Source: Gardnerella vaginalis 1500E (lineage in GTDB: Bacteria; Actinomycetota; Actinomycetes; Actinomycetales; Bifidobacteriaceae). Taken from it: DNA of 64,000 nt. This document shows positions 56,899-61,308 of this stretch, one piece after another. The stretch spans positions 124,001 through 188,000 of the forward strand of contig NZ_ADES01000014.1 of the NCBI RefSeq assembly GCF_000263595.1, written 5' to 3'. The notes under the pieces were generated by a model. That model saw only the letters and a list, made by a program, of their open reading frames with translations. It was not told the origin of the DNA and ran no database searches. The first letter of the stretch is position 1, and each line of letters starts with the position of its first letter. Position numbers and translations under genes: made by a program.

Positions 56899-58659
56899 CT
56901 ACTGCTCTTGCTCCTTGCGACGCTTCATTACAATGTAGAAGAACGTGCCGCCCAAACCAAGAACACCGCAAAGCGTCAAAATCACCAAGCCGCGAGCACC
57001 AGTCATAGGCAGCGCTTTAAGGATCTTTTCGAGAGAAGTAGACTTCTTGTTGTTGATCTTCAAAGTGTTAGCTTTATCTTCTGCACCAGCAGTAAGATTC
57101 ACACAATGAAGTTTGTTATCAAGTTCAAATCCATCTGGAGCAGTAGTTTCAACTGCGCAATAAACGTGTGAAACTTTATCAGCATTACCCACGAAGAATG
57201 AATCAGAAGCATTACCTTTATCGTCAGTTGCAGCCATCGTGCGAACTTTGTCAGTAGTCGTTATTAAATCAGTACCAGCAGCTTCAACTGTCTTACCATT
57301 AAGATTGTCTACAGTCTTACCTGCAGCAGCTTCATACACATTGAAGATTGCACCCTTCAAAGGATTACCATTCTTATTAGTAATGTCATCACTCAATCCA
57401 ACCTTATCAATGGTGAGCTTAGCAAAATTAGTGGTATCTCCACCTTCGTGAGGATGATCTGGGTCTTCCTTACATGGCTTATCTTTAGTTGGAACGCAGC
57501 TTGGAGTTTTATCTCCATCGCCGGTTGCTACACCATCTACATCAGTGTTTATATTGTTCTTAATATTTCCAGGAGCAATAACTGTTGTTACAACTGTTGC
57601 TGTAAGTTTGCCACCAACTTTTGCAGAAGCCTTAGCCAAACCAGTTTTAGTGAGCTTAACGCGAATCCACTTGACAGTCTTGAGTTTTTCAGCACTGGAT
57701 AAATCAGTAACCTCAGTTGGATTATCACCAATTGAAGAATATGCTTTAACTTCGTAATCTGTTGCAGTTAGCGTATCAGCATTATTACCATCTTTATCAG
57801 TAACCTTCACATCTTTAACACTGTTATAGTTCAAGAAGTCTGTGTTAATCGGGTCAGTGAATGAAACATTGGTATATGTGCTGCCACCATCTTTGATAGC
57901 AGTAAGTGGAATGGAAATATCCCAGCCCATCGTTGTATTAGTTCCATCAATGAATGGCTTGTTTGGATCAGCCTGAGCTTTCTTCTCTACCTTGCTGGAG
58001 CTAACGTCGTTCTTTGGATAAATCTTTAAGTTGTAAAGCCAACTATGAGTCTGCGTATCAGGAAGAGGAACCGTTACAAGGAATGGATTAACTTGCTTAG
58101 TAACCTTAATAGGCTTTCCATCTTTCTTAGGCGCACTATTAGCCAAGTCTTCTTCTACCAGGTACAAGCCGTACGTAGTACCAAGATTGAATGTTGTAGA
58201 GCCATCTGCAGCAGTTTCTTGTTCTTTAATGTCTGCATCAGTCGTAGAAACCTTCAAACCAGCATCAGTCAAAGCCTGACTAGCAGTTTTATTTTCAGTC
58301 GTTAAATTCTTGATGGCTTCCCAACCAGATGTATTAGACAAATCAATCTTGTTGCTTTTAGAATCAAGAATTGGAGTAAGCTTGAACTTCACTCCTGAAA
58401 TTGGTTTTTGTGTGGCTGGAATATTCTTATACGCTTTACCATTATTCCTATCCTTGGTCTCAGGACCTTCATATTTATAAATAGTGATAGAAGTTTTCTG
58501 CCCAGTTTTAATATTCGCGGTGTTTTCACCTTGAGCAGGAGTAGTAGTCGGCGTATTTTCAGCCCAGGCGACTGAGCCGGCGACGCAGCAGGTGCAGAGT
58601 GTGCAGGTTGCGGCAAGCATTGCCACAGCCTGTTTTAATGAAATTTTGTTTAGACGCAT
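56899..58659 (-). CDS. Pilus backbone subunit (LPMTG, isopeptide-type pilin)
   Basis: The 586-residue protein has a signal peptide (LAATCTLCTCCVAGSVAWAEN), a pilin motif LYNLKIYPKN near residue 208 whose lysine links subunits, an E-box YCAVETTAPDGFEL near residue 498 for isopeptide bonds, and LPMTGARG near residue 550 with a membrane helix and KRRKEQEQ tail. These are hallmarks of sortase-assembled (SpaA/FimA) backbone pilins. Strong TTGTTA-17-TATAAT promoter upstream. It is first in the pilus locus, before the class C sortase and giant adhesin. Confidence 0.93.
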   Translation of the reverse strand: MRLNKISLKQAVAMLAATCTLCTCCVAGSVAWAENTPTTTPAQGENTANIKTGQKTSITIYKYEGPETKDRNNGKAYKNIPATQKPISGVKFKLTPILDSKSNKIDLSNTSGWEAIKNLTTENKTASQALTDAGLKVSTTDADIKEQETAADGSTTFNLGTTYGLYLVEEDLANSAPKKDGKPIKVTKQVNPFLVTVPLPDTQTHSWLYNLKIYPKNDVSSSKVEKKAQADPNKPFIDGTNTTMGWDISIPLTAIKDGGSTYTNVSFTDPINTDFLNYNSVKDVKVTDKDGNNADTLTATDYEVKAYSSIGDNPTEVTDLSSAEKLKTVKWIRVKLTKTGLAKASAKVGGKLTATVVTTVIAPGNIKNNINTDVDGVATGDGDKTPSCVPTKDKPCKEDPDHPHEGGDTTNFAKLTIDKVGLSDDITNKNGNPLKGAIFNVYEAAAGKTVDNLNGKTVEAAGTDLITTTDKVRTMAATDDKGNASDSFFVGNADKVSHVYCAVETTAPDGFELDNKLHCVNLTAGAEDKANTLKINNKKSTSLEKILKALPMTGARGLVILTLCGVLGLGGTFFYIVMKRRKEQEQ

Positions 58660-60048: not shown

Positions 60049-61134
60049 TCAAATTTTCAAATTCTTATTGTTTAACATTCCCCCAAACATTGCATGATAC
60101 ATATCCTTCGATGATTCTTCTATCTTGGTAATACTCGATATTTTATTTCCAGCATCCTTTGATGATGCTCCACAAAGATAAAAGGCTTCATTTTCTGCCC
60201 CAAAGTCTATTGCAATATATCTATCGTGGTATTTTTTATCAGCTACCTTCAGATTCAAATCTACATTAGGATAATCTTTTCTAAAATCATCTAAAATATT
60301 TTTCGTAAGCATATCTTTATTTCTTACATTATCGCTAAAAACTATGATTCGCGTGTTATCTCTTGCAGCCCTTAAAAGTTCCAACGTTTTAAGCCCTATA
60401 TAGTTATCTATAACATAAATGCTTTTCTTTGCTGACTTATATATTTTTGTGTAGGCAACGTCCGCTTCTATCTTATCCCCATTCAGCAAAAGAAAATGCT
60501 TGTAAGTGCTACTATCTATAAAATTATCCATCACTTTTTTCAAATCTTCTTTTGTTGCTAGGGTGATAATTTTATTATTCATATTTGCTATTTCTTTTGA
60601 ATGCTGCATTATGTTATTTGTATTTTGATTTGTTTGCAATAACAGTTGCGACATTTCTTTTGAGCTAAGAAAGTCTCTATTCTCAATAATGAAGTCTTTC
60701 ATCTGCTTAAACATTCGTATTAAAGCTCGACTTTGCCTAATCGCAAGTTCTCCCCTTAATACAGTCATAAGCATATAGATGCCCTGTTCCGTAAAAGCGT
60801 AGGGATTGTATTTAATGTTACTGCCTCTGCCTTGCACTTTGTTAAAGGTCGCAAAATGCGACCTTGAAAGTTCATATACTTGCCCATTGTTCAAGGTGCC
60901 AAAATGGCACCTTGAAAGTTCATATACTTCCTCATCGGTTAGCCGGAACATAAAATCATCCCCTTCAAATTTTTCAATATTCCTTTTAACCTGTTCGTTA
61001 AATCTTTTTGTAGAATATCCATAAATTTCAGCAAGTTCAAAATCAAGCATAACTTTTTGATTTCTTATATGGTAAATCTTACTTTTAAGCGTAGTTTCAT
61101 CTATTATCGCAATCTCTTTATTCTCTTCTGCCAT
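60049..61134 (-). CDS. ORF6N-domain protein with PLD-like C-terminal domain
   Basis: About 361 residues. The N-terminal ORF6N/KilA-type DNA-binding domain (KVMLDFELAEIYGYSTKRFN, NPYAFTEQGIYMLMTVLRG) is common in phage and mobile-element proteins. Between them a 16-residue unit is duplicated: VYELSRCHFGTLNNGQ then VYELSRSHFATFNKVQ. The C-terminal half has KYHDRYIAIDFG and LCGASSKDAGNK, a PLD-like pattern. The gene is A+T-rich compared with its neighbours, suggesting transfer. The ATG at 61132-61134 has GGAGG upstream; TTG 12 bases earlier is in frame. Function is unknown; DNA binding and nucleic-acid handling are suggested by domains only. Confidence 0.85.
   Translation of the reverse strand: MAEENKEIAIIDETTLKSKIYHIRNQKVMLDFELAEIYGYSTKRFNEQVKRNIEKFEGDDFMFRLTDEEVYELSRCHFGTLNNGQVYELSRSHFATFNKVQGRGSNIKYNPYAFTEQGIYMLMTVLRGELAIRQSRALIRMFKQMKDFIIENRDFLSSKEMSQLLLQTNQNTNNIMQHSKEIANMNNKIITLATKEDLKKVMDNFIDSSTYKHFLLLNGDKIEADVAYTKIYKSAKKSIYVIDNYIGLKTLELLRAARDNTRIIVFSDNVRNKDMLTKNILDDFRKDYPNVDLNLKVADKKYHDRYIAIDFGAENEAFYLCGASSKDAGNKISSITKIEESSKDMYHAMFGGMLNNKNLKI
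60845..60913. repeat. Two 21-base palindromes 48 bp apart inside the ORF6N gene
   Basis: AAGGTCGC-AAAAT-GCGACCTT (60845-60865) and AAGGTGCC-AAAAT-GGCACCTT (60893-60913) have perfect 8-bp arms. They are the same place in each 48-bp (16-codon) tandem unit. The arms differ at two positions but changed in both halves, so pairing is kept. Confidence 0.9.
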
Positions 61135-61190
61135 GGTGCCCTCCAAAATTATCTAAATCTCTTGCCAAAACAACCAACCAGCAACACTCA

Positions 61191-61276
61191 CACAGAACGC
61201 CAACTGCACCAGTAACGAAAAAACGCATCTATCCGTTACGCACGCAGTACGCCGACTGCGTCAGTAACAAAAAAAA
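61191..61276. repeat. Palindromic repeat family B, about 1.7 units
   Basis: Two CAACTGC/CGACTGC...CAGTAAC segments, with CCGTTACGCACGCAG between, match the family B arms. They lie between the ORF6N gene and the split AbiEi-like gene. Confidence 0.85.
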
Positions 61277-61308
61277 CGGTAAAGCGTGCGCATTCTAAGC
61301 GCCCGCTC

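Follow-up and report, generated by a model that had tools for sequence, protein, structure and literature searches.

Why should two palindromes be kept exact inside a protein-coding gene while the residues that they encode change? The question is raised by an ORF6N-domain gene of Gardnerella vaginalis 1500E, which lies in a stretch of 64,000 nucleotides that was analysed as a whole (the window). A preliminary description of this DNA had reported two palindromes 48 bp apart in a tandemly duplicated unit, with a residue change between the copies. Both points were borne out: AAGGTCGCAAAATGCGACCTT and AAGGTGCCAAAATGGCACCTT are exact, spaced by 48 bp within a 48-bp direct repeat of the minus-strand gene, and encode SHFA and CHFG, respectively (Table 1).

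Table 1. Features of the ORF6N gene, in positions of the window
Feature	Positions	Strand	Details
ORF6N-domain gene	60049..61146	(-)	365 codons from TTG; ATG at 61134
ORF6N domain (PF10543)	60760..61083	(-)	E=2e-29
48-bp unit, first copy in gene order	60879..60926	(-)	
Palindrome 1 of the gene, AAGGTGCCAAAATGGCACCTT	60893..60913	(-)	codes SRCHFGTL; perfect arms reach 60890-60916
48-bp unit, second copy in gene order	60831..60878	(-)	
Palindrome 2 of the gene, AAGGTCGCAAAATGCGACCTT	60845..60865	(-)	codes SRSHFATF
C-terminal phospholipase-D-like (PLD-like) domain	60052..60489	(-)	HxRx4D motif as HDRYIAID; fold match Z 10-12

Results

The palindromes of the Gardnerella gene

The two repeat copies are 85% identical, and the arms pair perfectly over 12 bp in AAGGTGCCAAAATGGCACCTT and at 11 of 12 positions in AAGGTCGCAAAATGCGACCTT. 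The palindrome pattern had no match in 100 dinucleotide shuffles of the window, and a search of the 1.55-Mb Gardnerella assembly, allowing up to two mismatches, returned no site beyond these two. Within the genus, the perfection of the palindrome is not absolute, as other Gardnerella alleles have single-sided changes: L002 has one mismatch in each palindrome, and L003 one in its first. A second genomic ORF6N copy of Gardnerella, which contains a stop (G000:C14:89915-90874; L082-L085), has a palindrome with one mismatch. The surroundings of the window gene hold further features. Before its start, at 61186-61279, lies an imperfect 38-bp direct repeat with a period of 52 bp, with an inverted repeat at 61235-61268, and stretches similar to CAGTAACG / GTTACGCA precede other Gardnerella ORF6N genes; nearby, 56899-58659 encodes a surface protein that has a SpaA domain and a sorting signal of the LPMTG type.

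One place in the domain across six phyla

Homologues were collected from GTDB genome contigs, whole-genome searches, viral contigs and plasmids, yielding 129 non-redundant segments with less than 90% DNA identity. All but one of these (128/129, the exception being L158) carry a palindrome at the same place of the domain, some 14-25 codons upstream of the conserved motif FTEQG, and they represent Actinomycetota, Bacillota, Bacteroidota, Spirochaetota, Pseudomonadota and Campylobacterota. The frequent forms are LRSQ(N/I/F)(A/V)TS, encoded by GAGGTCRC..GYGACCTC, LRFQIGTS (GAGGTTCCAAATTGGAACCTC), LMSQNATS (TTGATGTCGCAAAATGCGACATCAA), LISQFAIS (TTTGATATCGCAATTTGCGATATCAAA) and MVSQNVIP (GATGGTATCACAGAATGTGATACCATC). 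In 11 genes, essentially the same palindrome is read in another frame (GGTCACAAATTGTGACC, GAACTGGTCACAAATTGTGACCGGTTC), coding ELVTNCDRF. Read on the opposite strand, the CAAAATG (QN) of relatives gives the Gardnerella centre, CATTTTG (HF). Several lineages have independently come to possess two palindromes, at spacings of 33, 42 or 66 bp, but most homologues have a single one, and the tandem 48-bp duplication is therefore incidental. A Treponema plasmid carries its ORF6N gene (L251) between genes for a DNA methyltransferase and a restriction subunit S. No published report of a palindrome in ORF6N or KilA-N genes was found in a library of open-access papers.

Compensatory evolution beyond codon constraint

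The proposal that selection acts on the DNA besides the protein holds in this broad set of homologues, if another DNA-level process is allowed to stand in for selection. When the protein sequence was kept constant and synonymous codons were sampled from each gene's own usage, the best palindrome of the segments scored 3.50, against 9.60 as observed (n=129), and in 102 of the 129 segments none of 60 shuffles reaches the observed score. P values for a fixed centre, biased by the choice of the best centre, were left out of account. A control block of the same genes, just after FTEQG, shows no excess (3.43 vs 3.19 shuffled). Chance arising from codon usage was rejected by the synonymous-shuffle nulls, for ORF6N as for the Bro-N and KilA-N genes described below.

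On a tree of the flanking protein, parsimony infers 153 two-sided replacements of one Watson-Crick pair by another and 76 changes to a mismatch, against 1-8 two-sided replacements in slid controls, in which the partners were moved by 1-3 columns. An independent tool, applied to 46 sequences hand-picked for diversity, found 95.9% of cells paired and a covariation of 0.714, compared with 0.216 after shuffling and at most 0.126 after sliding. Within the palindrome, the opposite arm dictates the wobble bases. The Ser codon follows the paired residue in 76 of 76 cases without exception, being TCG with Ala (29) and TCA with Val (47); the Thr codon ACC accounts for 76% at the palindrome vs 25% in the genes, and AGG for 78% vs 37% of AGR codons. 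The compensatory evolution of the palindrome exceeds codon constraint, and the earlier expectation of arm co-variation is matched by the broad ORF6N alignment, in which neither independent mutation of the arms nor loss of the palindrome by synonymous change was seen.

Two-sided changes as inferred by parsimony could also come about without selection, if an old quasi-palindrome were kept perfect by template-switch mutagenesis during replication, a process known from E. coli, where it brings quasi-palindromes closer to perfection (PMC7202029). We consider such neutral self-correction improbable. The 76 changes to mismatch persist, for example AGG to AGA opposite ACC in 21/113, while other chance palindromes of the same genes have not been perfected, as seen in the control block. 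Nor does template switching predict that the T six bases from the centre of the ORF6N dyad is nearly invariant, that promoter copies resemble the internal palindrome, or that family-specific palindromes occupy a corresponding place in three domain families.

A signature of duplex DNA rather than transcript

Control by an mRNA stem-loop was among the mechanisms offered in the preliminary description, and the sense RNA could indeed fold into a hairpin by the same pairing; an antisense RNA at the palindrome is formally possible as well. However, G-U pairs at silent sites are not tolerated. Silent replacement of ACC by ACT, with which the mRNA would retain a G-U pair, is nearly absent (1 G-T vs 73 G-C at d=8), and G-T pairs at d=5 number 0 vs 16 G-C, while a silent change that gives an A-C pair is common (21 at d=7). 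As G-U-type pairs are not favoured, selection looks to act on duplex DNA, and the observations point to a DNA dyad rather than a transcript hairpin as its target. Moreover, no Rfam family matched. A stem-loop of mRNA or antisense RNA controlling translation or transcript decay is thus disfavoured by the missing G-U tolerance, and we rate it as very improbable.

Palindromes in Bro-N and KilA-N genes

Bro-N and KilA-N genes, originally fetched as controls, carry family-specific palindromes of their own, located around nt 140-190 of the match to the domain. In the same test against the synonymous null, the observed and null scores are 11.0 and 4.7 for ORF6N (n=25), 9.3 and 5.0 for Bro-N (n=22), and 11.1 and 5.1 for KilA-N (n=16), with a few genes of each set staying within the null; Rha (PF09669), represented by only 4 genes, scores 7.5 vs 4.5. 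Among Bro-N genes, the DinD-type palindrome ACCATTTTGTTGACGTCAACAAAATGGT codes DHFVDVNKMV, and GTCGACAAATTGTCGAC is another form. The KilA-N palindrome TTTTAATCCCGTCGAATTCGACGGGATTAAAA codes DFNPVEFDGIK, and its compensated variants include KPLE-FEGF / KPLE-FERF, with a change from CCC..GGG to CCT..AGG, and NYGE-FAII. A KilA-N-class palindrome, AATCCCGTCGAATTCAACGGGATT, was also observed just upstream of a Bro-N gene in L266 and L267.

The dinD gene of E. coli K-12 (L297:2761-3585) contains TGACCATTTCGAGGAGATCCTCGATATGGTCA with a score of 12, the next best palindrome in gene and promoter scoring 6. Some other E. coli-like dinD alleles are imperfect (L298, L313, L315, L317), and the Thiothrix dinD is without the palindrome. 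The gene is hypervariable in E. coli: in 2680 of 4730 genomes, even the best place reaches an identity of only 80-90%.

Copies before the start codon and around the genes

When ORF6N genes are aligned by their start codons, palindromes of the class accumulate at +100 to +300, within the ORF, and a second time less than 100 bp upstream of the start; at other positions up to 1.5 kb away they are almost absent. About 15 of some 115-130 ORF6N genes have a second palindrome that precedes the start by 30-110 bp. In a set of these curated by class, partly by eye, the promoter arms agree with the gene's own internal arms at 8.6 of 11 positions vs 7.24 in shuffled pairings (p=5e-5, n=15); a first, automatic comparison gave a weak signal (p=0.047). 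The pairs of L096 (TTTTGAGATGCCAAATTGGCATCTCAAAA) and L160 are near-identical, and in L121 promoter and internal palindromes share the frame-shifted type. Promoter and internal sites show no significant helical phasing (p=0.49), and in the window gene and its close relatives the 120 bp upstream of the start are free of class palindromes. Upstream of the L155 gene (1295-1420) is a run of four different class palindromes 34 bp apart, the first of which lies inside a truncated ORF6N copy; some promoter copies may therefore be gene remnants.

Class palindromes also occur in other settings. Several different ones cluster in the 3' flank of the ORF6N gene of L147, and one, at L257:1501-1519 in a Bacteroidota genome without an ORF6N match, reads MRSQIVTS in a short frame flanked by two genes. 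The different palindromes upstream of L155 and downstream of L147, and the copy in a genome without ORF6N, would fit a small selfish palindromic element inserted in these genes and their surroundings, in the manner of Rickettsia palindromic elements or REPs. Such an origin seems quite improbable to us, since the commonest palindrome sequence has 10 sites in 148 Bacteroidota genomes, 7 of them inside ORF6N genes and 2 adjoining one, and the palindrome is not dispersed in the Gardnerella genome. The fixed place in the domain, too, argues for descent and against repeated insertion.

The encoded protein and the exchange of its palindrome-bearing segment

The window protein matches PF10543 with 102 bits (gathering score 27.8), antirepressors of the PHROG collection, and the PADLOC candidate-defence model PDC-S05 (E=6e-105), the defence activity being putative. 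For a homologous ORF6N domain, that of L177, the predicted model (pLDDT 87) has KilA-N DNA-binding proteins as best matches in the viral library BFVD (E=3.7e-6); against the PDB, the best match reaches Z 7.0 and MBP1 only Z 4.5. The L177 palindrome codes approximately for residues 61-70, which comprise the last part of helix 56-63 and the loop that follows, as placed by sequence reading and not by contact analysis. A search with the full-length model of the window protein matched only the C-terminal domain, and a sequence search found no solved structure.

ORF6N genes that are otherwise nearly identical have exchanged the segment that bears the palindrome. L012 and L042 share a divergent tract of about 300 bp, in which identity has its minimum at the palindrome; identity is 97-100% in the 420 bp upstream of this tract and in most of the 640 bp downstream of it. 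Identical upstream regions were also found with different palindrome segments. The strongest rival to a regulatory role, a recombination or cleavage site, would also explain this exchange tract: the palindrome would be cut, and repair of the surrounding segment with other ORF6N genes as templates would spread and diversify it, much as in homing. The cutter could be such proteins themselves, some of which have nuclease-like domains, for example the PLD-like part of the window protein. With ORF6N fused to a PLD-like domain that has an HxRx4D motif, the window protein might act as a nuclease directed to particular sites, and both the PLD-like fold and the ORF6N match to a candidate defence model are in line with cleavage. 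There is also a precedent in a chimeric nuclease that shares its DNA-binding domain with a satellite replication initiator and cuts semi-palindromic iterons of about 30 bp (PMC8263062). However, many short ORF6N proteins without the PLD-like part still have the palindrome, a target in the owner's gene would need protection, and diversifying selection on specificity yields the same pattern of swaps. We judge a cleavage or recombination site to be unlikely.

Discussion

What, then, is the most plausible role of the palindrome? Of the three mechanisms initially put forward (a site of the protein itself, a recombination site and an mRNA stem-loop), a putative binding site of the encoded protein is best supported, because of the promoter copies, the family-specific sequences and the predicted DNA-binding domain. 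Template-switch correction and selfish elements each explain only parts of the observations. We infer that the protein binds the palindrome, represses by this binding, and that the palindrome is conserved for this reason. The palindrome would then be a duplex-DNA site of the encoded protein, or of close siblings, serving as an autoregulatory operator within its own coding sequence, a reading in which our confidence falls just short of even. Counting against it are the small share of genes with a promoter copy, the absence of such a copy from the window gene, the non-significant phasing, and the want of a further strong site in the Gardnerella genome. An ORF6N dimer would bind the dyad in the gene body, with a half-site of approximately TTGAGGTCRCA, and some genes would offer it a further copy 30-110 bp upstream of the start codon; the bound dimer would repress its own transcription by roadblock or looping. 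With the site inside the specificity-determining segment, an exchange of segments between alleles would transfer the site along with the specificity.

The Bro-N (DinD) and KilA-N genes would follow the same arrangement with other, family-specific palindromes. That each gene of the KilA-N/Bro-N/ORF6N superfamily encodes its own DNA target in the codons of its recognition domain, as a general rule, is a tentative extension that we regard as somewhat doubtful. If true, specificity and site would form one heritable, exchangeable unit, inseparable by recombination. Compensatory change that keeps coding dyads while altering the protein is very rare, and here such dyads are found in nearly all sampled members of three widespread families of phage and mobile-element regulators, including the dinD of E. 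coli. Should the palindrome prove to be the cognate site, the DNA target could be read from the gene itself for most such proteins; their regulons and functions would then be open to direct tests, and the cassette-like swaps of specificity would be explained.

Comparison with known systems

Operators within genes are known for bacterial repressors, as in lac O2 in lacZ and gal OI in galE. The putative operator described here resembles these in being a dyad within coding sequence, with a putative promoter-proximal partner in some genes; unlike them, it lies in the regulator's own predicted DNA-binding domain, co-varies with its residues, and recurs in almost every member sampled from three domain families. 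Rickettsia palindromic elements are palindromes able to occupy coding sequence or adjoin genes. REPs, likewise, can lie in coding sequence or beside genes (PMC3733652). The ORF6N dyad differs from both in being short, confined to one place of a domain, present in few copies per genome, and tied in sequence to its family; the dispersal over many unrelated genome positions that is expected of a REP-like element was not found in the Bacteroidota genomes or in that of Gardnerella.

Nearer in some respects are PARCELs, amphipathic tandem repeats of 25 residues (PMC2996958), which share with our palindromes a coding DNA with dyad symmetry, horizontal spread and an occasional tandem arrangement. The ORF6N palindrome, in contrast, spans 7-10 codons in a predicted DNA-binding domain and is mostly one short unit, and where it occurs in tandem the spacings are 33, 42, 48 or 66 bp, none being 75. 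Perfect inverted repeats retained inside protein-coding genes are likewise seen in the mitochondria of Nematomorpha, with coding palindromes of up to 284 bp in respiratory genes (PMC6649704), but these are without the family-wide link to a regulator. Odn and PLE RepA (PMC8263062) offer a parallel on the side of the protein, with the DNA-binding domain of a mobile element and semi-palindromic sites of about 30 bp in a short array, binding being putative for ORF6N; their sites, however, lie in a replication origin, whereas the ORF6N palindrome lies in the gene's own coding sequence.
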